Positions 1-14,999 of a DNA stretch of 21,299 bases are shown here, one piece after another. The position numbers and the translations under genes are program-made. The notes below the pieces were generated by a model. It was given only the letters and a program-made list of their open reading frames with translations, searched no databases and was not told the origin of the DNA. The stretch comes from a virus: positions 1 to 21,299 of the IMG/VR virus record IMGVR_UViG_3300022074_000447. The stretch is one strand, 5' to 3'. Every line of letters begins with the position of its first letter. The first letter of the stretch is position 1.

Positions 1-1573
1 GTGCTGTGTTATTAGCACCTGTGGTATTAGCTTCCATAGAATTTTTACCTATGGCTACATTAAAACTTGCTGTTGTATTTGCTTTTAAGGAGTTCATACC
101 AACTGCTACATTATCAGCACCTGTAGTATTTGCATTTAAAGCTGCATAACCAATACCTGTATTATTAGCTGCTGTGGTATTAGATGCTAAAGTACTTGTA
201 CCTATTGCAGTATTTTTATCACCAGTTGTATTGGCAGCACCTGCATTATCACCCATAGCTACATTTTCTTGACCTGTCGTGTTTGCAGTTAAAGCGTTAT
301 AACCAAAAGCATTATTATATGAGCCTGTTGTATTGGCATCTAAAGCTAAAGCAGCAAAAGCATTATTTCTAGTACCTGTAGTGTTTGCACCTAAAGATAA
401 ATAGCCAACGGCTGTGTTATTAGAAGCTGTAGTATTTTCTTGTAAAGATAAAGCACCAACAGATGTGTTTGTTGCACCTGTTGTATTAGAAGTTAATGAT
501 GCATAGCCTATTGCTACATTATTGTCTGCTGTAGTATTTGCATCTAGTGCAGCAGAACCTAATACTGTATTTGAAGCACCTGTAGTGTTTACCAGTAAGG
601 CGTTTAAACCAACTGCTGTGTTGTTATCGGCTGTCGTATTAGCATTTAAGGCATTTACACCTATTCCTACATTTTGCGTACCTGTTGTATTTGATGCAAG
701 AGCAGAACCACCCATTGCTACATTTAAGTTACCTGTAGTATTTGCTGCTAAAGAATTTTTACCTACAGCAGTTAATCCTGTTCCTGTAGTGTTTGCTGTT
801 AAAGAATCAGCTCCAACTGCGGTGTTGTTACTTGCTGTTGTATTAGCTGCTAGAGAATTATCACCTACTGCTGTATTAAAACTACCTGTTGTTAAAGCTG
901 TAAGTGCAACAGTTCCTATACCTGTATTATTTCCACCTGTAGTTAATTTAGTTAATGCTAAAGAACCTACACCTGTATTTTGGTCGCCAGATGTTAAATC
1001 ATCAAATACTTCATGTCCTAGACCTGTATTATTTGAAGCACTAGATAAAGTGCCTGTTCCTGCATCATTACTGATAAGTAAACTTTGAGAAAAATCAGCT
1101 ATGTTATATTTAATACCTACGCCATTTACAGTACCACCGCTTATTGCACCTGTAGTTGTAATAGAGTTAGATCCTGTGTCTATTGTGCCAGAAAATGTTA
1201 TATTCTGCGCAACTGTAATTTGTTGACTTGAATTTATAGTCATAGCTGGCGTTGTGCCAACTGCTGATCCTAAACCAATAACTAAGCTATCTGAACTATC
1301 ATCTAGCCCTACATAGTAATCTTGTGCGTTGCCATCAAAAACAAGTTTAGTATCTTCTGCGCCAGCATCACCAATAGTAAGACTTGGGTTTGTGCCTTTT
1401 ATTATTACCGCACCGCCAAAATCTACTTGGCCCATGTCGATAGCTGTACCAGAAAGACTAAAAATTCCGTCAACTGAGTCTAAGTTGGCGTTAAGTTTTG
1501 TACCCCAAGTGTCAGTTGATGCCCCTACCTCTGGTTTTGTAAGGTTTAAATTAGTTGTAAATGTATCTGCCAT
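1..1573 (-). CDS. Tail fibre / receptor-binding protein, C-terminus cut by window edge
   Basis: Translating leftwards from the ATG at 1573 gives 524 codons open to the left edge with no stop, so the gene is partial. A ribosome site (AGAGGAT) lies just upstream. The N-terminus begins [19 protein letters not shown], a start I associate with phage tail fibres that bind the tail. A short beta-rich segment follows (about residues 40-180). From residue 182 there are 20 exact-length 17-residue repeats, consensus NTAVGxxSLxANTTGxx, still running at the edge. Repeats of this NxAxGxxAL kind form trimeric beta-roll shafts in adhesins and fibres; such proteins often end in an intramolecular chaperone, which would lie outside the window. 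It is the last gene of the structural run. Role in host recognition is inferred from repeat type and position; the receptor is unknown. Confidence 0.85.
11..1030 (-). repeat. 20 tandem 51-bp repeats inside the tail fibre gene
   Basis: Twenty consecutive 17-residue (51-bp) units occur without a single length change, and a partial 21st unit runs off the window edge. Units vary at positions 6-7, 10-11 and 15-17, while N1, G5, L9 and the NTT at 12-14 are mostly kept. The first three units are the most divergent (for example LTSG and LTTG instead of NTTG). Exact length with diverged sequence points to structural constraint rather than recent duplication. Confidence 0.92.
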
Positions 1574-1583
1574 AAAATATCCT

Positions 1584-2234
1584 CTATGCTGCGTCAGTCC
1601 AGGTTGTTGTTGTTACGGACTGATCTGTCCAAGTTGTTGTAGCTGGTGTTTGTTCTGTATAAGTGGTTGTAGCTACAGTCTCATCTTCCCATTTTAGACC
1701 ACCTAAAGCAGAAAAACCACTTAATTGTGTAAATGTAGCTGAACCTCTATCTATTTGTCTGCCTACAGCAACAACAGATCCTACGGCTGCAATAGTAGAT
1801 TGTCCTTTAAAGGTAAACCTACCCTCTGCTGTCATGTTAGAAACTATAGGACCAATACTTGCACCAAGATCAATTTGGTGTCCTGTAGCTGTCATACTAG
1901 ATGCAGCTGCTATGACTGATGCACCTAGATCTATTTGTACTCCAGATGCAGTCATACCTGAGGACGCAGCTATAGTAGCTACGCCGTCATGTATAAGTGT
2001 GCTATCTGCGGTAAATCCTGATGATGATGCTATCGTAGAAGCACCTACAATAACAAATCTACCTGTTGCTGTAAGTCCTGATGTTCCTGCAATAGTTGAT
2101 GCACCTGTTATTACAAAGCGACCTGTTGCAGTTAAAGATGATGATGCAGCAGCCGTAGCTTCTGCAAACTCGTATGATGGTGTTCCCCAATGGCTTCTGC
2201 CGTATTTACTAAAGCCGTAGCCTACTGAGGCCAT
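1584..2234 (-). CDS. Repeat-rich tail or fibre-associated structural protein
   Basis: The product is 216 residues. After an N-terminal segment (1-33, beginning [17 protein letters not shown]) there are seven 20-residue repeats (residues 34-173) of the type [20 protein letters not shown], rich in Ala, Ser, Thr and Gly and alternating in hydrophobicity as in a beta-solenoid or beta-prism shaft. The C-terminus carries a different short repeat ([21 protein letters not shown]) rich in Thr and Trp. I do not recognise a named family. Its place between the fibre gene and a conserved tail-associated protein, and its repeat architecture, suggest a virion surface or fibre component. It starts four bases after the previous stop with no clear ribosome site, so translation may be coupled. 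An open frame on the opposite strand is a shadow of its periodic sequence. Confidence 0.75.
1716..2135 (-). repeat. Seven tandem 60-bp repeats in the 216-residue structural gene
   Basis: Units of exactly 20 residues begin at residues 34, 54, 74, 94, 114, 134 and 154, with a broken start at 174. The pattern is hydrophobic-T-A-x-G, then a beta strand, then GAST or similar. The first two units are the most alike at both protein and DNA level; later units have diverged. Confidence 0.88.
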
Positions 2235-6970: not shown

Positions 6971-7420
6971 TTAAACCTCATGCCATTCTTTACCAACAAA
7001 TAGTAATGCCTCTGCCTCTCTTCTTCTCACTAAACCTTGTAAAACTTTTCCGCCTGCTTTGTTCCATCTTTTTATTTGTGTAGGTATGTCGTTCCAGTCT
7101 TTATGCGTACTATTTAATACTTTTAATAATGTAGAGCTTTTTAAATTAGCTGGTCCAAGATTAAACACCCATGATACCAAAGCATCAAATTCGTTTTGTT
7201 TTAAATTAACCTCAACCAAGTTATTTATATAACCCTCGTACTCTTCCATTTCATGGAATAACAATTTATCTGCTTCTTCTTGGGTGAGAGTATTACCCTC
7301 TTTAACACCTTTAGTAGATCCATAGCCTATTGTCCAAACTCCTGCCGCACATTTATATGCTTCTAGTTCGCAGCCCTCAAACTTTTTAATTAGTGACAAA
7401 CCCTCTTGTGATATATTCAT
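6971..7420 (-). CDS. Endolysin, T4-type lysozyme (muramidase)
   Basis: The product is 149 residues. It cleaves the glycan chain of peptidoglycan. The opening GLSLIKKFEGCELEAYKC followed by AAGVWTIGYG is the GH24 phage lysozyme signature. The catalytic triad reads Glu15, Cys24, Thr30, with the spacing E-8-C-5-T. This is the Cys variant known from P1 Lyz, not the Asp of T4. I chose the ATG at 7420, which has GGGAGT upstream, over an in-frame ATG at 7459 lying inside the nuclease gene. No signal peptide or signal-anchor is present, so it needs the holin encoded just upstream. It follows the nuclease gene by four bases. Confidence 0.9.
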   Translation of the reverse strand: MNISQEGLSLIKKFEGCELEAYKCAAGVWTIGYGSTKGVKEGNTLTQEEADKLLFHEMEEYEGYINNLVEVNLKQNEFDALVSWVFNLGPANLKSSTLLKVLNSTHKDWNDIPTQIKRWNKAGGKVLQGLVRRREAEALLFVGKEWHEV

Positions 7421-7424
7421 ATTA

Positions 7425-7814
7425 TTACTCCCAAACTTTTGTTTTAGTACCGCCATCATAATCTACTGCTAAATCATTTGCTTTTAACAATTCTGCTACA
7501 TTGCCTTGCGAACAAAATATGTCTCCAAGCACTCTGCCATATTTATCAGTACCATAAGATTTTAAGGTGATGTCACCTACTAACCACTCTTTTAATTTTG
7601 ATTTGGCCTGTAACCCAAGCTCTTTTTCTTTTGTTCTATGCGGTTGTCTTTTGGTATTGATCCGTGATTCTGGAGTATCAATACCTGCAATACGAACAGA
7701 TTTATTATGTAGTTGCACAGAAAAACCGAGATCAATAGTTTTTAAACGCACAGTATCACCATCAATAACTTTTTCTAAAGTTACTTTATAAACGAAAGCA
7801 TCTGGACTTGTCAT
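7425..7814 (-). CDS. Staphylococcal nuclease-like (SNase/thermonuclease) domain protein
   Basis: The product is 129 residues and consists of the SNase (OB-fold) domain alone. The motifs are in order: VIDGDTV (16-22), VRIAGIDTPE (40-49), DKYGRVLGDIF (90-100) and AVDYDGG. The residues matching staphylococcal catalytic Arg35, Glu43 and Arg87 are Arg41, Glu49 and Arg94. It should cut DNA or RNA with calcium. There is no signal peptide, unlike secreted host thermonucleases. It lies between holin and endolysin and overlaps the holin stop by four bases (ATGA), so it is made with the lysis proteins. It may degrade host or extracellular nucleic acid at lysis, or have an intracellular role. Confidence 0.88.
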   Translation of the reverse strand: MTSPDAFVYKVTLEKVIDGDTVRLKTIDLGFSVQLHNKSVRIAGIDTPESRINTKRQPHRTKEKELGLQAKSKLKEWLVGDITLKSYGTDKYGRVLGDIFCSQGNVAELLKANDLAVDYDGGTKTKVWE

Positions 7815-8287
7815 TTGTCGTCAGGCGTATGTGAAGCACCAAAATAAAACGAAATGATTGCACTAGCCAAACCGCCGAGATAACCAAGCACTAGATTTAT
7901 AAGAGCCTCGCTGTTTTGCTCTGGTGGTTGTAGTGTTACTAAAAAGATATATCCAAGAAAACCACCTATAGTAAACAAACCAATAATTCTTGCAGTCCAG
8001 TCTTTACTAAACATACCTCTAGCATGTTGTTTATCTTGTGTTTCTAGTTGAAATACATCTACATCAAGTTCTTTCATTTGCACTTCAAACTCTTGTTCTG
8101 CTTTTTTAAGTTCTAACATTTGCTCTGGCGTAGCATTTTGTATTGCTTGTTGTATTGTTTTTTGATCGTTAGATACGCCCAATACCTCTGCTATTTTACC
8201 CATAGCCATATTACCTAGTGGACCGCCCATAGCTGAACCAATAGTAGGTGCAACAGCACCTACAATATTTTTTAATAAACCTTTCAT
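7811..8287 (-). CDS. Three-TM-type holin
   Basis: The product is 158 residues. Residues 1-38 form a Gly/Ala-rich hydrophobic helix (IVGAVAPTIGSAMGGPLGNM). A charged helical stretch follows. Two clear membrane segments lie near the C-terminus (ARIIGLFTIGGFLGYIFLV and LGYLGGLASAIISFYFGAS), and the tail is short and charged (SHTPDDK). This layout matches the phage and gene-transfer-agent 3TM holin family. It would open the inner membrane at the set time and release the signal-less endolysin. The ATG comes one base after the previous stop, and its own stop overlaps the nuclease start. Confidence 0.78.
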   Translation of the reverse strand: MKGLLKNIVGAVAPTIGSAMGGPLGNMAMGKIAEVLGVSNDQKTIQQAIQNATPEQMLELKKAEQEFEVQMKELDVDVFQLETQDKQHARGMFSKDWTARIIGLFTIGGFLGYIFLVTLQPPEQNSEALINLVLGYLGGLASAIISFYFGASHTPDDK

Positions 8288-8288
8288 A

Positions 8289-8504
8289 TTAGACCAACAT
8301 TGATGTTACAACTGCGATTGATAATGCGCCTAAAAATCCAAACACACCAAATGTTGCAGTTTTTATTGTTAAATTAATTCTAGTGATTTCTTCTTTGATA
8401 TCTGAAAATTCATTGAAAGCAGTTTTCCAACGCTCATGTGATATTGTTTCTAGCTTTGTAAGCCTTTCTGCAACATCTTTGACTGTCATTTTTTTTATTG
8501 TCAT
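8289..8504 (-). CDS. XhlA-like small membrane protein with coiled coil
   Basis: The product is 71 residues. A heptad-like helix (VKDVAERLTKLETISHERWK and onwards) is followed by one C-terminal membrane segment (FGVFGFLGALSIAVVTSML). This coiled coil plus C-terminal anchor layout is that of haemolysin XhlA-type lysis accessory proteins. The ATG at 8504 shares a base with the cyclase stop (TGATG); an in-frame TTG at 8507 is less likely. Placed directly before the holin, it may be a holin partner or antiholin. Assignment is by layout and context. Confidence 0.6.
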   Translation of the reverse strand: MTIKKMTVKDVAERLTKLETISHERWKTAFNEFSDIKEEITRINLTIKTATFGVFGFLGALSIAVVTSMLV

Positions 8505-10255
8505 CAAACTGTATAAATTTTTAAATAATCTTTTTTACCTTTTACTTTAATAGGTTGTAGTGATTTTAACTCAAAATCACAATTTTTTGCAGTATTTTCG
8601 CCAATCAGGATATCTTCACCCACATCCTTAGTAGCTGATTCTAGCCTTGCAGCTGTGTTTACAGCGTCACCAATAGCAGAATAATCAAACCTAGTATCTG
8701 ATCCCATATTTCCAACTACTGCCTCGCCAGTATTTACACCAATACCAATAGCAACTGGTTCTGGTAAAGTTTTTTGTAATTGTTGTATAGCTGTTCGCAT
8801 ATCTTGTGCGCAAGCTACTGCTCTTTTTTCATGTTCGTCTATGTCAAGCGGTGCATTAAATATTGCCATACAAGCATCACCTATAAATTTATCTACCATA
8901 CCTCCATGTGCTTGTATGCAAGTTACTTGCTCTGTCAAAACCTTGTTCATAATATCTGTAACTTGTTCTGGTGGTAATTTTTCAGATAGGTTTGTAAAGC
9001 CCCTTACATCTGTAAATAAAAATGTGCAATATCTTTTTTCGCCACCAAGTTTAAGCAAGTCTGGGTTATCTTGTAATTGTTTTACTTGTCTAGGATCAAG
9101 ATAATGTTCAAATTGTTTTTTGATCTGCTGACGCAGTTTGTATTGTTTTTGATAGTTTAAATAGAAAGCAATAGTAGATGTAACTATTTGTGACACAAAA
9201 GTCCACGAAAAGTCCAATAAAATGCCTTTTTGGATGCTAAAAACTCCTGAGAAGCTCGTAGTGAGCAAGAAAAATACAACTATACTTGCGCCCTTAACTA
9301 CATTGAAATAATTGATTGTGAGCCATGTCAGAGATACGAAAATTGCCAAAATCAAAATTTCGGCTGCTTTTGCCCAGTCTGGTATGTATGGTGAGTTTTG
9401 TATCAAGATTGACTCAGATAATGCAGCTTGGATCTTGTGAGGTTCTAGTAAACCAACTGGGGTAGCAATTTGTGGCATGACTCCGTTAGCAGTTACGCCA
9501 ACAAATACAAACTTATTTGCAACATTCATTTCTTGTAATGTAGTTTGCTGAGTATCAACCCAGCTGATCCATTTGCGACCAAGACTATCTGTTTTAACTG
9601 GTGGTATTCCTCGTATTGATATTTCTTCTATACCATTATCATTAGTTTTTATAATGTAAGTTTTGACATCAAACAAGGCTTTATATATTTGTGTGCCAAA
9701 ACTAGGAATCCAATCATTGTTGGGTGTTTTTACTAATAAAGGTATTCTGCGAACTAACTGATCTATGTCTGTGGGAGCAACGGCTAACCCTTGCAAAGCG
9801 TGTTTGGATAGTTGTGGTAGGTTCTCCTTTACTCCCAAAGAAATTATACCACCATTATCTTCGCCCATAACAACTGTGCCTGGTGTGTTGGGATAATTAC
9901 CCTTACCATCTTCAAACATAGCTAAAACAGTTGGAGCAAACTCTAATGTTTCTGCAAAGATTTCATCACCGCCCAAACGATCAGCCTGAGGAAAACTGAC
10001 CACCCATCCAATACCTATAGCGCCTTGGTTTATTAAATCAACTTGTATCTGTGCTAATCTTTGTCTTGGCAAGGGCCAGCCACCCTCACGCTCTATATCT
10101 GCTTCTGTGATATTTAGTATGACAAAATTACCAGATTCTTCTGGAGTCTGCACAAAAGTGTCATACACTTTTAATTTTAGTATTTCTGTTGGCGTGCTTT
10201 CAAAGATTATAGGTAGCGCAAGTATTATAAGTAATGGTAATAATAGTTTGTTCAT
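8504..10255 (-). CDS. CHASE2-domain membrane adenylate cyclase (class III)
   Basis: The product is 583 residues. It has one N-terminal membrane segment (4-19), then a CHASE2 sensor domain (about 25-290, expected in the periplasm; note GGWPLPRQRLA and VFVGVTANG). Three membrane segments (about 297-315, 322-342, 350-367) are followed by a linker (LRQQIKKQFEHYLDPRQVKQ) and a cytoplasmic class III cyclase domain (about 405-583). Metal-binding Asp416 (FTDVRGF) and Asp460 (FIGDA), adenine-selecting Lys456, and transition-state Asn533 and Arg537 (AVNTAARLE) are all present. Ser526 stands where many cyclases have Asp or Thr. It should therefore make cAMP as a dimer. Paired FecR and CHASE2-cyclase genes are known from proteobacterial chromosomes. 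It starts directly after the FecR stop (TAAATG). An intact sensor cyclase is unusual in a phage late operon. Confidence 0.93.
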   Translation of the reverse strand: MNKLLLPLLIILALPIIFESTPTEILKLKVYDTFVQTPEESGNFVILNITEADIEREGGWPLPRQRLAQIQVDLINQGAIGIGWVVSFPQADRLGGDEIFAETLEFAPTVLAMFEDGKGNYPNTPGTVVMGEDNGGIISLGVKENLPQLSKHALQGLAVAPTDIDQLVRRIPLLVKTPNNDWIPSFGTQIYKALFDVKTYIIKTNDNGIEEISIRGIPPVKTDSLGRKWISWVDTQQTTLQEMNVANKFVFVGVTANGVMPQIATPVGLLEPHKIQAALSESILIQNSPYIPDWAKAAEILILAIFVSLTWLTINYFNVVKGASIVVFFLLTTSFSGVFSIQKGILLDFSWTFVSQIVTSTIAFYLNYQKQYKLRQQIKKQFEHYLDPRQVKQLQDNPDLLKLGGEKRYCTFLFTDVRGFTNLSEKLPPEQVTDIMNKVLTEQVTCIQAHGGMVDKFIGDACMAIFNAPLDIDEHEKRAVACAQDMRTAIQQLQKTLPEPVAIGIGVNTGEAVVGNMGSDTRFDYSAIGDAVNTAARLESATKDVGEDILIGENTAKNCDFELKSLQPIKVKGKKDYLKIYTV

Positions 10256-11374
10256 TTAATTACTTTGCGTGATAGTAATAACACTATCACTTCCGCCGTT
10301 TATTTTTATTATATTAGATACTCCGTCTTGTATCAAAATAACTGTATAAGCATTACTGCCATCTAAATCTACTCTGACGCTTTCATTTACTTCTCTGCGT
10401 AAACTAACAACATTACCTGTAATCAAAGCAGTAATCTGTGTATCTGGATCTTTACCAAGCAAAGTACCTGCTATTTGTGTGCTAGTAGCTTGTGCTAACT
10501 GATCCTCTTCTTCTGCAACGGCTAGTGCATCAAGCACATTTAGTAAATCTTCTAAGTAGTTTACATCAAGGTAATTTATATCAAGTTCTGTAAAGTCTAA
10601 ACTATCTTCTTTTAGATAATCTTCTGCAAGATAATCTATATCAAGATCGTTAAAATCAAGTACGCTATCTGTTTGTGCTGTTGTAGCTTCCTCTTCTATA
10701 ACTGCTTCTTCTTTAGGTGGTGTTACGATCAACATATTATCTATAACATCAAGTGTCAGATCTAATACTACTGGTTTGGTTGGTGTTGATTCAAAAACGC
10801 TTACAGTAGTTGCCTGGTAAGGTTTGTTTAGTGTTACTGTTCCCATGCCTGTAGTTACTAATATCTCACCACTTGATAAACCATATTTATCAGGCAAGAG
10901 AATAATTAAACTACGACCAAGTTCATCAACTGTGGCCGTAAAATCAGTTCCACGAATAGCTATATTTGCTGTAGGTGTTTTAAGTTTAATGTTTTGTTTG
11001 TCTATACGATTTAGATTTCCTGTGATGAATCTGGCTGTACCAAGTCCAAAGGTAAGTGCCATCTTTGATTTACTTGGGTCAGGATCATAGATATATTCAT
11101 CTATTAGCAGTTCTGAAAACTCTGTGAGTTTTACAACAGAATCATCTAAAAAGGTGATAGCCATACGGCCATTTTTTGTTATCGCTTCATCATTACTTTG
11201 TATAGCAAAATCAAGATCAGCATTGTAGGTTTTATCTCTGACTATTTGCGCCGAGCCGTTAAGTTCAGATATATCCCCAATACTAGCAGCTTGTGCTTGT
11301 ACCTTGATCGTTTTGGATGACGCAAACAGTAGAAGCAGCAGTACCAGAAACGGATATAATTTTAAGCCAGTCAT
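10256..11374 (-). CDS. Secreted FecR-domain protein with curlin-like C-terminus
   Basis: The product is 372 residues. A signal peptide is clear (hydrophobic core 8-18, probable cleavage after VQAQA near residue 29), so it is periplasmic or exported. The FecR domain spans about 35-195; its hallmark is TPTANIAIRGTDF at 133-145. An acidic region (222-290) contains a duplicated unit (LDFNDLDIDYL, LDFTELDINYL). The last 35 residues (SNAYTVILIQDGVSN, then SDSVITITQ) resemble curlin repeats. There is no TonB-box or sigma-factor-regulator membrane segment as in classical FecR. It lies between the curlin-like gene and the CHASE2 cyclase. The start overlaps the curlin-like gene by 92 bases and lacks a clear ribosome site, but the signal peptide requires it. 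Role inferred: periplasmic sensor or scaffold. Confidence 0.85.
   Translation of the reverse strand: MTGLKLYPFLVLLLLLFASSKTIKVQAQAASIGDISELNGSAQIVRDKTYNADLDFAIQSNDEAITKNGRMAITFLDDSVVKLTEFSELLIDEYIYDPDPSKSKMALTFGLGTARFITGNLNRIDKQNIKLKTPTANIAIRGTDFTATVDELGRSLIILLPDKYGLSSGEILVTTGMGTVTLNKPYQATTVSVFESTPTKPVVLDLTLDVIDNMLIVTPPKEEAVIEEEATTAQTDSVLDFNDLDIDYLAEDYLKEDSLDFTELDINYLDVNYLEDLLNVLDALAVAEEEDQLAQATSTQIAGTLLGKDPDTQITALITGNVVSLRREVNESVRVDLDGSNAYTVILIQDGVSNIIKINGGSDSVITITQSN
10550..10667 (-). repeat. Acidic YL-rich repeat in the FecR-domain gene
   Basis: Residues about 238-257 and 258-277 of the FecR-domain protein are two copies of a 20-residue unit with pattern LDFxxLDIxYLxxxYLxxx. The DNA copies share AATCTATATCAAG-like blocks with substitutions. 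It would give an acidic, amphipathic linker between the FecR domain and the curlin-like tail. Confidence 0.6.
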
Positions 11375-12014
11375 TATCTTGTGTACTCAGTTGTGAGATA
11401 TTAAAAGTTCTTGAACCGCCAGTATGATCTAACCAAAAATATCCACCTGCTGAGGCATTAACACCTGTACCTGTATAAGTTACTGTATTATCAGAGCCAT
11501 CTATATCCATGTAGTTAGTAGCACCATCAATATTTATATTTGATGTAACTGTGTTATTTGAGCCATTAATAATCCAGTCCAAGTCAAGTGATGCAGCTAA
11601 TGCTGTTGTACCTTGATTTAATGTAAATGTATTACCGCTACCTGTTACATCAACATTTTGGTTTGAGCCGTCAGCACTATAAGTATCTGTAGGATCTACC
11701 TGGATAGTAAATGTGTTAGTGCCGCCATCAAACTCGTAGAAACCTGTAAATGTGTCAGCAAATATATCACCAAGAAATTTGTTAGTTGCACCAATCATGT
11801 TGATATCTAAAGTCATAGTGTTTCCATCCAAATCAAATGCGTTTACACTACCTGCTGTGGAGTTAAGTCCACCAATAATATTAGATATACCTAGTTGTTC
11901 TAGGTCTATATTTGCACCAGTACCAGACTGATCTACATATATTTCGTTGTCAGCCGCGTAACTTGTCCATGCACTCAGCATCACAAGTAGGCTTATCAAT
12001 TTTATTTTCATCAT
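11283..12014 (-). CDS. Secreted curlin-repeat-like (amyloid-type) protein
   Basis: The product is 243 residues with ribosome site AAGGAG nine bases before the first of two ATGs. A signal peptide ends at SYA (residue 20). The mature start NEIYVDQSGTGANIDLEQLG, then ISNIIGGL, follows the curlin pattern of hydrophobic-x-hydrophobic-x-Q-x-G-x-x-N. Later loosely repeated units (GNTMTLDINMIGATN, SNNTVTSNINIDGATN, SDNTVTYTGTG) keep Asn/Gly turns and alternating hydrophobics but have Asp or Asn in place of Gln. This suggests a beta-solenoid or amyloid subunit, the presumed substrate of the CsgG-like pore encoded just upstream. Two Cys near the C-terminus (231, 243) are unusual for curlins. It is longer and less regular than CsgA (151 residues) or CsgB. 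Family assignment is moderate; export is well supported. Confidence 0.75.
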   Translation of the reverse strand: MMKIKLISLLVMLSAWTSYAADNEIYVDQSGTGANIDLEQLGISNIIGGLNSTAGSVNAFDLDGNTMTLDINMIGATNKFLGDIFADTFTGFYEFDGGTNTFTIQVDPTDTYSADGSNQNVDVTGSGNTFTLNQGTTALAASLDLDWIINGSNNTVTSNINIDGATNYMDIDGSDNTVTYTGTGVNASAGGYFWLDHTGGSRTFNISQLSTQDNDWLKIISVSGTAASTVCVIQNDQGTSTSC

Positions 12015-12852
12015 GTAATTCTACTCCTTGGTCTGTATTTTGTAAAATCCAAAAACCCCGATCATAACCAGACTGAATTATTTCTAATACACCGCCCTCA
12101 ATCGCTTTCATTAGTGCTATAGTTGATGATTCATTTCGCGCGTTTCCTAGTTCTATTTCTACAAGTTCGGTATTTGCTTCAATAAACCTAAATACATCCT
12201 CAGATTTACCATAGCTAAATATAGTCTTTTGACTTAATACTTCAAGCAATACTTCGCCTGTAGCTACAGACACCATTCTAAGCGAAACTGTAATATTATC
12301 CTCTCTATACTGTACGCTGTTACCAATTCCTAAGTATCTAGCACCTATACCACCAGATTCTAGGTTAGCTTCGTAAGATATAACAGCACCCTCTATCAAT
12401 ATACCAGCAAACAATAAAGGTCTTAGTGCTTTCTTTTTCTCTTCTTCAGTTGCGGTTTGCTCTCTTGCGGATCTTATAAGCTGTCGTTCTTTGGTTAGGT
12501 TATCTAGTCCTACTCTTTCAACTACCCTAAAAAACTTTCCGTTACCAGCGTGTTTTAAGGCTCTTATAAGTAGTGCGTTTGGTTGTTGTGTTATGGCCGT
12601 GCTAAATAAAGCAAACTCGCTGTTGCTTTTTCTTTGACCAGTTTGATCTGTAAAAGCAGTTGGATATACAGCAACAACAGGACTAACCTGTGGTATAGGT
12701 ACATTTTTAAGTTCTACAGATTGTAGATCTTGTATTGATACTATGTCTTTGCTTGAAAATCTTTGTTCGTAAGTATCTTCGTACTGGTCAAATATAGAAC
12801 AGCTAGAAAGTGAAAGTACCAATAGGTATTGTAATTTCTGTAACTGTGCCAT
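11950..12852 (-). CDS. csgG: CsgG-like curli secretion channel lipoprotein
   Basis: The product is 300 residues (E. coli CsgG has 277). It has a lipoprotein signal with lipobox LSSC, Cys18 being the lipidated residue. Family landmarks are present in order: VVAVYPTAFTDQTGQ (59-73), ERQLIRSARE (122-131), IEGAVISYEANLESGGIGAR (153-172), YLGIG, VSVATGEVLLEV, FRFIEAN, and near the end MKAIEGGVLEIIQSGYDRG with FWILQN. These match the E. coli protein closely from memory. It should form the nonameric outer-membrane pore that exports unfolded curlin subunits. In the constriction segment, the Phe equivalent to E. coli Phe56 is kept (LFSTAI), but the Asn55 position is Leu and Tyr51 is not obvious. A C-terminal extension with two Cys is additional. 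It overlaps CsgF by 50 bases and the curlin-like gene by 65. Confidence 0.93.
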   Translation of the reverse strand: MAQLQKLQYLLVLSLSSCSIFDQYEDTYEQRFSSKDIVSIQDLQSVELKNVPIPQVSPVVAVYPTAFTDQTGQRKSNSEFALFSTAITQQPNALLIRALKHAGNGKFFRVVERVGLDNLTKERQLIRSAREQTATEEEKKKALRPLLFAGILIEGAVISYEANLESGGIGARYLGIGNSVQYREDNITVSLRMVSVATGEVLLEVLSQKTIFSYGKSEDVFRFIEANTELVEIELGNARNESSTIALMKAIEGGVLEIIQSGYDRGFWILQNTDQGVELHDENKIDKPTCDAECMDKLRG

Positions 12853-13303
12853 CTGCTTCTGTTATTTTTAAGGTTAATGTTACGCCATCACTTGTATATT
12901 CAATAGTGTTGCCCTCTAGTGTTATTGTACCTGCATTTTGTGGCGTTTCTCCAAACAGATTGTTGACCAACTGCCTAGACAACTCTGCATATACTCTTGA
13001 TTCTAGGTTACGCATAAACCTAGCTAATGTGCTGTTTTCTTTTTCTCTTTCTATTTCATCTTGTAAGGCTTTGATTTCTTCTTTGATAGTTAGCTTACGG
13101 CTAAACTCTTGGTTCTCTATTGTTAGATAATGAGAGGATGTACCTACACCATTAAAACTAGGTGACTTAAACTTGTGTACTATTTGGTCTGCTTTGACAT
13201 TTTCTACAAAAATTCCAACACACAAAAGTATGCCTATAACAGCAACTATTTTAATTATTGTATCTTTTTCTTTTTCCGAAAATTTAATCTTTCCTTTGGT
13301 CAT
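12803..13303 (-). CDS. csgF: CsgF-like curli assembly factor
   Basis: The product is 166 residues (E. coli CsgF has 138). An unusually long charged N-terminus (1-15) precedes a hydrophobic segment (16-33) and a probable cleavage after VKA (38). The mature start DQIVHKFKSPSFNGVGTSS parallels CsgF, whose N-terminal strand with FRNPNFGGNP inserts into the CsgG pore. A helical, charged insertion (about 68-98) is followed by LESRVYAELSRQLVNNLFG, matching the CsgF helix that ends in QSQILGGLL. The C-terminal beta region (GNTIEYTSDGVTLTLKITEA) matches CsgF's DGQLQLNVTD part. It precedes csgG, as in curli operons where csgF and csgG are adjacent. It overlaps both neighbours. Confidence 0.85.
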   Translation of the reverse strand: MTKGKIKFSEKEKDTIIKIVAVIGILLCVGIFVENVKADQIVHKFKSPSFNGVGTSSHYLTIENQEFSRKLTIKEEIKALQDEIEREKENSTLARFMRNLESRVYAELSRQLVNNLFGETPQNAGTITLEGNTIEYTSDGVTLTLKITEADGTVTEITIPIGTFTF

Positions 13304-13634
13304 CTCTTTCTGCCTTTGCTATTTTTTCTATATCAACTAAATTTGGTACGCCTAACAAAGTTTTTAACAACACATCTTGTCTTATACTTTGATTGTCAAC
13401 GGCTCTTACTCTGTCAATTAGACTGACAATAATGCCATATTGACTATCTAACTTTGTGCTGACTCGCTCTTCCATAGTGTCCAAGCTAGTCTGGACTTTT
13501 TCATCTAAGGTATCTAACTTAGTTTCCATACCATCAATGATTCTGTTTATCAGTTTCCAAACAAAAACTCCAAGACCTAAAGCTGCGGCTATCGGGAAGC
13601 CAACTTCGGTAATAAGAGCAACAGCATCACTCAT
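13284..13634 (-). CDS. Small membrane protein with coiled coil, holin-like
   Basis: The product is 116 residues. A single N-terminal membrane segment (VGFPIAAALGLGVFVWKLI) is followed by a long amphipathic coiled coil (DGMETKLDTLDEKVQTSLDT and onwards), with a charged C-terminus. The layout resembles UviB/BhlA-type and other small phage holin-like proteins. It is the gene directly before csgF, with a 20-base overlap, and its ATG overlaps the preceding microprotein stop (ATGA). It could be a second holin, or an inner-membrane partner of the curli-like cassette. Function unproven. Confidence 0.65.
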   Translation of the reverse strand: MSDAVALITEVGFPIAAALGLGVFVWKLINRIIDGMETKLDTLDEKVQTSLDTMEERVSTKLDSQYGIIVSLIDRVRAVDNQSIRQDVLLKTLLGVPNLVDIEKIAKAERDDQRKD

Positions 13635-13965: not shown

Positions 13966-14139
13966 TTACTTCTCCTTTTTCTTTTTAGTTGTTTTTTTAA
14001 CTCTAACAGTTTTATAAGCCTCATTCACCTTTGGTGTGGACTTATCGTCAGGTATGTATTGGCCTTTTTTGTTTCTGGTTCTAACTTGTACCTGTTCTGT
14101 TTTAGTTAGTTTACCCCATAAGTTACTAAAAAATTTCAT
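13966..14139 (-). CDS. Basic 57-residue phage protein
   Basis: It begins MKFFSNLWGKLTKTEQVQVR, has a middle KKGQYIPDDKSTPKVNEAYK, and a Lys-rich C-terminus. The ribosome site AGGAGT stands seven bases before the ATG. No known domain is seen. It belongs to the train of small basic proteins between portal and curli-like genes. Confidence 0.7.
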   Translation of the reverse strand: MKFFSNLWGKLTKTEQVQVRTRNKKGQYIPDDKSTPKVNEAYKTVRVKKTTKKKKEK

Positions 14140-14149
14140 AATATTACTC

Positions 14150-14410
14150 CTATTTTTTTTTAATAATGGTTTTTACATTTGTTGGTTTACCACCAACGCC
14201 TTGTTTTACAGCCCGCTTTCTTCTTACTGCACTAGCTATTTGTTTTCCAGTCATCTTAGCAGCTTTTGCTTTGGGTACACATTTCGGATATTTTCTTTTG
14301 CGATCAGATTTAAGTTTTGATCTACCACATTTTTTATAGCCACCACCTTTTTTAGGTGCGCCAATATCTACCCATTCTTCTTGAAACCACTCTTTCAGTC
14401 CTTTGGCCAT
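14150..14410 (-). CDS. Basic 86-residue conserved marine phage protein
   Basis: It begins MAKGLKEWFQEEWVDIGAPK, followed by KKGGGYKKCGR and KYPKCVPKAKAAKMT, and ends in KTIIKKK. The block WVDIGAPKKGGGxKKCGR with a later YPKCVPxAKA is one I know as widespread in marine phage and algal-virus genomes without assigned function. Two Cys in conserved contexts could bind metal or form a disulfide. Its ATG shares a base with the previous stop. Confidence 0.75.
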   Translation of the reverse strand: MAKGLKEWFQEEWVDIGAPKKGGGYKKCGRSKLKSDRKRKYPKCVPKAKAAKMTGKQIASAVRRKRAVKQGVGGKPTNVKTIIKKK

Positions 14411-14565
14411 TATCTATACCCGCCGCCTCTTTTCTTATATTCACGAACTAACCAAGCATTTGCATAAGCACTTGGATAAACTTTGAACTTTCTTTTTGCT
14501 TCAGCCTTTACTCTGGAATATAGACTAGGGTTTGTAGGAGTTGGACCTTTTTTCTTTTTTGCCAT
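14410..14565 (-). CDS. 51-residue conserved phage protein (AYANAWLVREYKKRGG type)
   Basis: It begins MAKKKKGPTPTNPSLYSRVK, followed by FKVYPSAYANAWLVREYKKR and a GGGYR end. I recognise the YPSAYANAWLVREYKxRGG block as a small domain found in many marine phages (possibly the one called DUF5872; not verified). It overlaps the next ATG by one base. It was too short for simple length cut-offs, but its conserved block makes it convincing. Confidence 0.75.
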   Translation of the reverse strand: MAKKKKGPTPTNPSLYSRVKAEAKRKFKVYPSAYANAWLVREYKKRGGGYR

Positions 14566-14571
14566 AATAAT

Positions 14572-14823
14572 TTACCAGTTTTTACAAGACCAATATCTTG
14601 CGGTTAGTTTACTTGGTGGACTTGTGTCACACTTATGTCTAGCCCTAAAAGATTTTCTTCTGGCAGGACTGTTTTTTTTGATTTTCATGTTTGGATCGCC
14701 AAAACGAATAAGTTTTGTTTTGTCACCTTGTTTTGCTAGAACAGCAAACTTCTTTGATTTACTAGGCGTTCTTTTGGGTTTGTTGTAACCGCTAAATCTT
14801 TCGCCTCTGTATGTAATCGCCAT
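14572..14823 (-). CDS. 83-residue conserved phage protein (DUF6321-like, tentative)
   Basis: It begins MAITYRGERFSGYNKPKRTP, with LIRFGDPNMKIKKNSPARRK and SFRARHKCD, and ends in TARYWSCKNW. The FGDxNMxIKKNxPARRKSFRARHxCD core is strongly conserved in marine phages and large viruses in my memory. Two Cys occur, in RHKCD and YWSCK, and the protein is very basic. Function is unknown; a structural or DNA-associated role is possible. The ATG shares a base with the upstream stop. Confidence 0.75.
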   Translation of the reverse strand: MAITYRGERFSGYNKPKRTPSKSKKFAVLAKQGDKTKLIRFGDPNMKIKKNSPARRKSFRARHKCDTSPPSKLTARYWSCKNW

Positions 14824-14999
14824 TAATGTAACCTCTGTTCTTCAATAAAAATCACTTTTGAATCTTCTTTTATCTCACCCCCAGATAAAATTGTCAAAAT
14901 TTGTAACGCATGATTCTCGTCTTTGGCCATTATATCTCTTGCTATATAAACTAGATCGCCCTCGCGAACTTCTAAATTATATATTTTGTGTTGGCACAT
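14823..14999 (-). CDS. 58-residue protein of unknown function
   Basis: It begins MCQHKIYNLEVREGDLVYIA and ends SKVIFIEEQRLH. It is unlike its neighbours in being acidic, not basic. The ATG lies 23 bases inside the portal 3' end with no clear ribosome site, so coupling to portal translation is likely. The stop shares a base with the next gene's start. No family recognised. Confidence 0.55.
   Translation of the reverse strand: MCQHKIYNLEVREGDLVYIARDIMAKDENHALQILTILSGGEIKEDSKVIFIEEQRLH

Follow-up and report, generated by a model that had tools for sequence, protein, structure and literature searches.

A putative curli (type VIII secretion) module beside the lysis genes of an uncultured GP4/SU10-like podophage

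INTRODUCTION

A type VIII secretion (curli) module was reported between 2020 and 2022 in SAR11 and OM43 phages, in every case by bioinformatics (PMC7029224, PMC9599517, PMC9004378). The roles proposed for it are sibling capture, superinfection defence, uptake and the timing of lysis (Zaragoza-Solas 2020, PMC7029224; Wittmers 2022, PMC9599517; Buchholz 2022, PMC9004378), and no experimental test of the module was found in the later literature on curli and pelagiphages. The subject here is the same module in IMG/VR record IMGVR_UViG_3300022074_000447, positions 1 to 21,299, the whole of which (21,299 nucleotides) is called the window. A first-pass annotation made from this DNA alone pointed to a cassette of CsgF-like, CsgG-like and curlin-like genes, and noted that csgG and csgF homologues occur in some marine phages, as the papers cited above describe. 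Positions 8504-13303 are probably a phage-borne type VIII secretion (curli) module lying in a podophage lysis cassette and serving the late export of a surface amyloid. The module itself is already known; what the window adds is an uncultured lineage and the insertion on the lysis side.

RESULTS

Five genes form a single unit

The module and the flanking genes of interest all lie on the minus strand. In the direction of transcription the module comprises genes for CsgF, CsgG, a curlin-family protein, a FecR-domain protein and a CHASE2-adenylate cyclase, ending at 8504. The first three are real, consecutive and overlapping genes, as first annotated, with overlaps of 50 bases (CsgF/CsgG) and 65 bases (CsgG/curlin); the curlin and FecR genes overlap by 92 bases. 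The identities given to these three genes stand, but not the extent of the cassette, which runs on through the FecR and cyclase genes.

Linkage was followed in IMG/VR contigs found via CsgG, portal or the cyclase of phage Melnitz, counting loci with enough flank and summing two surveys that may contain a few near-duplicates. Across three phage backbones, CsgG is accompanied by CsgF in 219/219 loci, by curlin in 208/211, by FecR in 179/179 and by the cyclase in 121/123. Both CsgG and FecR are found at all 84 T4-like cyclase loci with room (84/84), and among phages in these loci the FecR-cyclase pair was never seen alone, without csg genes. The linkage outlasts rearrangement, the cyclase being on the opposite strand in contigs L351-L353. 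A second curlin gene between FecR and the cyclase occurs mainly in T4-like phages. The ratio of non-synonymous to synonymous substitution rates (dN/dS) is 0.03-0.18 over the five genes (curlin 0.04-0.10, CsgG 0.05-0.09, FecR 0.04-0.11 and cyclase 0.05-0.18). The five genes are one unit, in near-strict linkage and under strong purifying selection. A linked substrate had been thought to make this locus stand out; the substrate is indeed linked, and relatives conserve it as the neighbour of csgG, but its frequency in phage loci and the CsgA/B genes already reported (PMC9599517) mean that it is not peculiar to the window.

In the podophage the curlin and FecR genes fall within the run of structural genes, and the two proteins might be components of the virion, with the csg-like pore a bystander. 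This is highly improbable, since both proteins have signal peptides, T4-like phages carry the two genes away from the structural block, and it is CsgG, rather than the capsid genes, to which they are linked.

The CsgF-like and CsgG-like proteins

The CsgG profile aligns with the solved Escherichia coli CsgG over the whole chain, including both transmembrane hairpin regions. The lipobox is L-S-S-C, with its cysteine at residue 18 (C18). The CsgF-like protein has an N-terminal hydrophobic signal followed by an IVHxFKxPSFxGxG segment corresponding to the N-terminal, CsgG-binding part of CsgF; in alignment with the proteins of phages HTVC008M and Melnitz the conserved segment is F-x-x-P-x-F-x-G-x-G. 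A search of solved structures with the CsgF profile gave no match. The two proteins are homologues of the CsgF and CsgG components of a type VIII secretion (curli) system. In the contig of L083 (G398:C1:43205-44020) the CsgG frame contains one internal TGA stop, the match being otherwise full-length.

The curlin-family protein

The assignment of the 243-residue protein comes from its family. The Curlin_rpt profile is matched by 5/16 phage members (best 5e-8). A hidden Markov model (HMM) of the phage family matches 6/6 curlins encoded beside bacterial csgG (E from 1e-10 to 9e-4) and 0/300 shuffles, and does not match the window's own repetitive fibre-like protein. Comparison with bacterial curlins by hhalign gives 93.7% (E=2e-7) over the first 80 residues. 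GxxN motifs number 9, compared with 2.9 in shuffled sequences (p=6e-4). The AlphaFold model is all-beta with ~15 strands (predicted local distance difference test (pLDDT) 78, predicted template modelling score (pTM) 0.76), the repeat fold anticipated in the first-pass annotation; among viral structures it comes closest to phage proteins named 'Curlin associated' (E=9e-5, template modelling score (TM) 0.69). At the family level the protein is therefore assigned to the curlins, and would provide a curlin-repeat substrate beside csgG.

The C-terminal tail of the FecR protein was considered as an extra curlin repeat and rejected. It ends QDGxSN...ITITQS, with two glutamines invariant over 21 residues. 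Comparison with curlins by hhalign gives only 0.4% and 4%, and a position-specific scoring matrix for the repeat scores it 4.9, against 8.4 for CsgG and 8.4 for g2239 in the same window, so no curlin repeat is claimed.

The module is inserted into a lysis cassette

In relatives that share the portal and have no module, the same slot contains a gene transfer agent (GTA)-type holin with three transmembrane segments (3TM; Pfam 1e-18), an M15 endolysin and a small membrane coiled-coil protein. Where module-less relatives reach past the slot, M15 is present in 22/22 and the holin in 17/22. The 116-aa gene that lies upstream of csgF in the window occurs in L149 and L154 without any csg gene, with holin and M15 directly after it in L149, and also in the module-less L160. 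In L088, L092, L112 and L122 the order is 116-aa gene, CsgF to cyclase, holin and M15. Comparison of L149 and L154 with these four contigs narrows the insertion down to the five genes and places it after the 116-aa gene and before the holin. In the window itself phrog_1544, SNase and lysozyme genes take the place of the holin/M15 pair. Among podophages, 43/53 loci with room have a lysozyme gene no more than 4.5 kb downstream of the cyclase, and the 116-aa gene is just upstream of csgF in 82/85 loci.

According to PMC9599517, one or two histidine kinases precede the module in every case. Judged by position, these are most likely the 116-aa family. No HisKA or HATPase domain was found in window 13284-13634 or in the HTVC008M and Melnitz counterparts; all three gave only weak holin-like matches. 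In the T4-like contigs L351-L353, where the genes from CsgF to the second curlin are on one strand and the cyclase is divergent, a pair of 116-aa-family genes lies nearby.

The insertion beside holin and endolysin genes raises the possibility that the module acts in lysis itself. CsgG and CsgF would then open or weaken the outer membrane late in infection in the manner of a pinholin or spanin, as proposed for Melnitz, with curlin and FecR as accessories; lysis timing is the role suggested by Buchholz et al. (PMC9004378). However, the same holin and M15 endolysin are kept in module-less sisters and in module carriers alike, so that lysis does not depend on the module. CsgG is moreover a predicted outer-membrane lipoprotein, not an inner-membrane holin, which argues against a pinholin, and a curlin that is nearly constant and under strong selection would be superfluous to a function requiring only the pore. 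A role in lysis is thus considered unlikely.

Phage lineage and exchange of the module

The backbone of the window is podoviral, with an SU10-type capsid (1.5e-85), an SU10 adaptor and a GP4 fibre I protein (9e-45); the nearest isolates have <50% identity in portal, capsid and terminase. No tRNA genes are present in the window, and the GC content is 35-42%. The csg contigs with portal, terminase and capsid of the window type have almost no genes closest to HTVC027P, a cultured phage of the HTVC023P type (there is a single such gene in L131 and in L133), and therefore represent a third backbone besides the T4-like and HTVC023P-like ones. The module is thus present in at least three backbones, to which the window contributes a GP4/SU10-like podophage lineage without a cultured relative.

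In a quick CsgG tree, with Shimodaira-Hasegawa-like approximate likelihood ratio test (SH-aLRT) support only and some long branches, phage sequences stand apart from bacterial ones (99) and podophages form a single branch (99) within which the two podophage backbones are intermixed. Between L008 and the window curlin and CsgG are near-identical, with synonymous divergence (dS) of 0.33 for curlin and 0.47 for CsgG, compared with 2.45 for the portal. The mixing of window-like and HTVC023P-like sequences in the tree, and a module dS far below that of the portal, indicate that the module has been passed between phage lineages.

Contigs L161-L166 and L170 carry csg genes and come from GTDB metagenome-assembled genomes (Maricaulis, Flavobacteriaceae, Neomarinimicrobiota, Rhodobacteraceae and Pelagibacter bins). 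They fall within the phage CsgG clade and were handled as phage contigs; such contigs in bacterial bins could be confused with bacterial curli operons. CsgG was found in 1/61 genomes of the genus Pelagibacter, that copy being on a phage-like contig, and it appears that in Pelagibacter the host supplies no CsgG of its own.

The FecR protein and the CHASE2-cyclase

The FecR protein comprises a FecR domain and a signal peptide only, and no N-terminal sigma-regulator domain was found in it. Sigma factor families gave no match among the window open reading frames (ORFs) scanned, and the protein does not classify as a FecIR-type anti-sigma factor. Its structure prediction is of low quality (pLDDT 34). 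In the cyclase D416, K456, D460 and R537 are kept in 76/76 relatives, and D524 and N533 in 74/76. With the CHASE2 domain, the metal Asp pair, the adenine-selecting Lys/Asp and the transition-state Asn/Arg all present, the active site is intact.

A FecR-domain ORF, often encoding a very large secreted-looking protein, lies within 1 kb of 7 out of 30 CHASE2-cyclases examined among the best alphaproteobacterial ones, with no csg genes. In Burkholderia a FecR/CHASE2-kinase operon governs biofilm (PMC5192318). By analogy, this operon and the alphaproteobacterial pairing support FecR and CHASE2 as a putative sensing pair. In the Alphaproteobacteria L183, L184, L191, L192, L198, L199 and L219-L235, FecR-domain proteins, often giant and beta-rich, adjoin CHASE2-adenylate cyclases, apparently as a sensor pairing of wider occurrence.

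The linkage of FecR and the cyclase is as tight as that of the curlin, FecR-CHASE2 pairs are known without csg genes and the active site is intact; the signalling pair could therefore be the selected function, with the curli genes as its output or sensed ligand. Against this, every one of the 84 phage cyclase loci with room contains CsgG, no phage of the sample had the pair by itself, and no cyclic AMP (cAMP) reader was found in the phages or in most Pelagibacter genomes. A primacy of signalling seems rather improbable.

Gene order and other features of the window

Upstream of the module the order of transcription is terS, terL, portal (17130-14977), small basic proteins and the 116-aa gene. 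The cyclase is followed by the 72-aa gene, the phrog_1544 protein, an SNase-like nuclease and the lysozyme, and then by scaffold, capsid and fibre genes.

Table 1. Position of the module and its lysis-side neighbours in the window
Feature	Position	Strand	Evidence
116-aa protein, single N-terminal membrane segment and coiled coil, lysis cassette	13284..13634	-	phrog_18771; weak holin matches
CsgF-like, 166 aa	12803..13303	-	Pfam CsgF 1.6e-16; phrog_35372 1e-44; alignment with HTVC008M and Melnitz CsgF
CsgG-like predicted outer-membrane pore lipoprotein, 300 aa	11950..12852	-	Pfam CsgG 3.2e-46; solved E. coli CsgG 1e-66; tree
Curlin-family protein, 243 aa, Sec signal peptide, candidate exported fibre subunit	11283..12014	-	Family-level curlin evidence; linkage 208/211
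FecR-domain protein, 372 aa, signal peptide, predicted periplasmic or exported	10256..11374	-	Pfam FecR 5.3e-9; phrog_37870 6e-69; linkage 179/179
CHASE2 sensor and class III adenylate cyclase, 583 aa	8504..10255	-	Pfam CHASE2 1.2e-29, Guanylate_cyc 7e-23
72-aa membrane coiled-coil protein, lysis-cassette side, after cyclase	8289..8507	-	Same position after cyclase in many podophage csg contigs
158-aa protein, weakly holin-3TM-like	7811..8287	-	phrog_1544
Phage lysozyme (endolysin)	6971..7459	-	Pfam Phage_lysozyme 9e-48

Three further regions of note are also on the minus strand. Window 2-1573 encodes a fibre or virion protein with ~20 repeats of the NTTGxxNTAVGxxSLxA type and PHROG matches to virion structural and tail spike proteins. 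Window 1584-2234 encodes a 216-aa protein built of ASTIAxSSGxTAxGxF repeats, without a Pfam or PHROG match. Window 13966-14999, between portal and lysis cassette, encodes tiny Lys/Arg-rich proteins that are kept in portal relatives; two match DUF5872 and one DUF5754. A promoter scan of the window gave a site count below that of shuffled sequences.

DISCUSSION

Sequence homology and linkage give good support to a phage-encoded type VIII export unit together with its linked substrate. Late in infection the CsgG lipoprotein would assemble in the outer membrane of the host, with the CsgF peptide inside the barrel. The curlin would cross the inner membrane by Sec, leave through CsgG and polymerise on the cell surface. 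The periplasmic FecR protein and the CHASE2 domain may sense export or the state of the envelope, which the cyclase would convert to cAMP. Homology and linkage underlie the CsgG/CsgF/curlin part of this scheme; the FecR/CHASE2/cAMP part is inferred. The likely gain would be that the dying cell and the debris it leaves have an altered surface, leading to aggregation or to blocked re-adsorption of progeny and rivals, and the data favour neither of these over the other.

Several observations weigh against late amyloid export. The exported fibre or amyloid is a predicted product, deduced from homology and linkage. Taken alone, the 243-aa protein falls below the Pfam cutoff and has no Pfam or PHROG match, so the profile match sought for it was obtained with its relatives and not with the protein itself; its model has no significant match among solved structures. 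Melnitz-infected cells showed no clumping (PMC9004378). A cAMP-binding domain is found in 0/14 module phages, the complete HTVC008M and Melnitz included, and a cyclic nucleotide monophosphate (cNMP)-binding domain in 5/61 genomes of the genus Pelagibacter, each time within an 870-aa protein and not a small CRP; these counts concern known module phages and Pelagibacter, not the window's own host directly. The cAMP signal is therefore without a known reader. Lastly, neither CsgE nor any further csg gene is present among the window ORFs scanned, as the first-pass annotation had said. Alphaproteobacteria likewise have no CsgE, so it is not universal (PMC3521004).

The absence of CsgE from the ORFs scanned and the oligotrophic hosts would also suit an uptake pore, an ungated CsgG admitting nutrients or macromolecules into the starved host (proposed in PMC7029224 and PMC9599517). 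This leaves the constant CsgF, curlin, FecR and cyclase unexplained, and a late location would be of little help in feeding replication; we regard uptake as decidedly improbable.

Late export of a surface amyloid is thus the preferred reading. A more elaborate form of it, offered tentatively as a possibility, is that the phage equips a host otherwise devoid of it with feedback-controlled amyloid secretion. FecR and CHASE2 would read periplasmic curlin export, the cyclase would signal inside the cell, and fibre assembly would be coupled to the time of lysis. The cAMP reader would have to be of a so far unrecognised kind, as no cAMP-binding domain shows up in the phages or in most Pelagibacter genomes. 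If late export is correct, infection by abundant ocean phages ends with the host acquiring a surface structure new to it, which could alter the clumping of cells, re-infection and what becomes of lysed material. Sister phages with and without the module, together with the insertion beside holin and endolysin, offer a clean natural comparison.

Comparison with known systems

Bacterial curli operons (csgFG-curlin, in Sphingomonas and other Alphaproteobacteria) share CsgF, CsgG and curlins with the window and, like it, are without csgC/D/E. In five bacterial csgG loci csgF is present in 5/5 and curlins in 4/5, and the ORFs near csgG in L168 are csgF, csgG and curlin-like genes only. Unlike the window, the five loci have no FecR or CHASE2-cyclase within ~8 kb, and their CsgG is on a separate branch. 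Among 385 alphaproteobacterial genomes sampled, CHASE2-cyclase relatives occur in 197 and CsgG in 6. As bacterial FecR-CHASE2 pairs occur without csg genes, and bacterial csg loci without FecR or cyclase, the phage module seems to combine two parts of bacterial origin. The FecR-CHASE2 operons of Proteobacteria (BiofilmReg, PMC5192318) resemble the window in having a periplasmic FecR beside a CHASE2 sensor; their output is a histidine kinase and response regulator, and their FecR has LysM, whereas the output in the window is an adenylate cyclase.

The Pelagibacter phage HTVC008M and the OM43 phage Melnitz have the same five genes in the same order, with 41-42% identity in CsgG and CsgF (PMC7029224, PMC9004378). 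In contrast to the window they are T4-like, have a second, longer curlin between FecR and the cyclase, and carry the cluster outside the portal-to-capsid late run. HTVC023P-type podophages and pelagimyophages (Wittmers 2022, PMC9599517) agree with the window in the order CsgF-CsgG-CsgA/B-FecR-cyclase, in the small upstream gene and in the CsgG clade. The window differs from the HTVC023P type in its GP4/SU10-like head, fibre and portal genes, and from the module of that report in that FecR and the cyclase are not separated by a second curlin and the upstream small gene has no kinase domain. Four points were not found in the published accounts of the module (PMC7029224, PMC9599517, PMC9004378) and are additions to them: where the module is inserted, the pairing of FecR with CHASE2, the lack of a kinase domain in the upstream gene and the lack of a cAMP reader.

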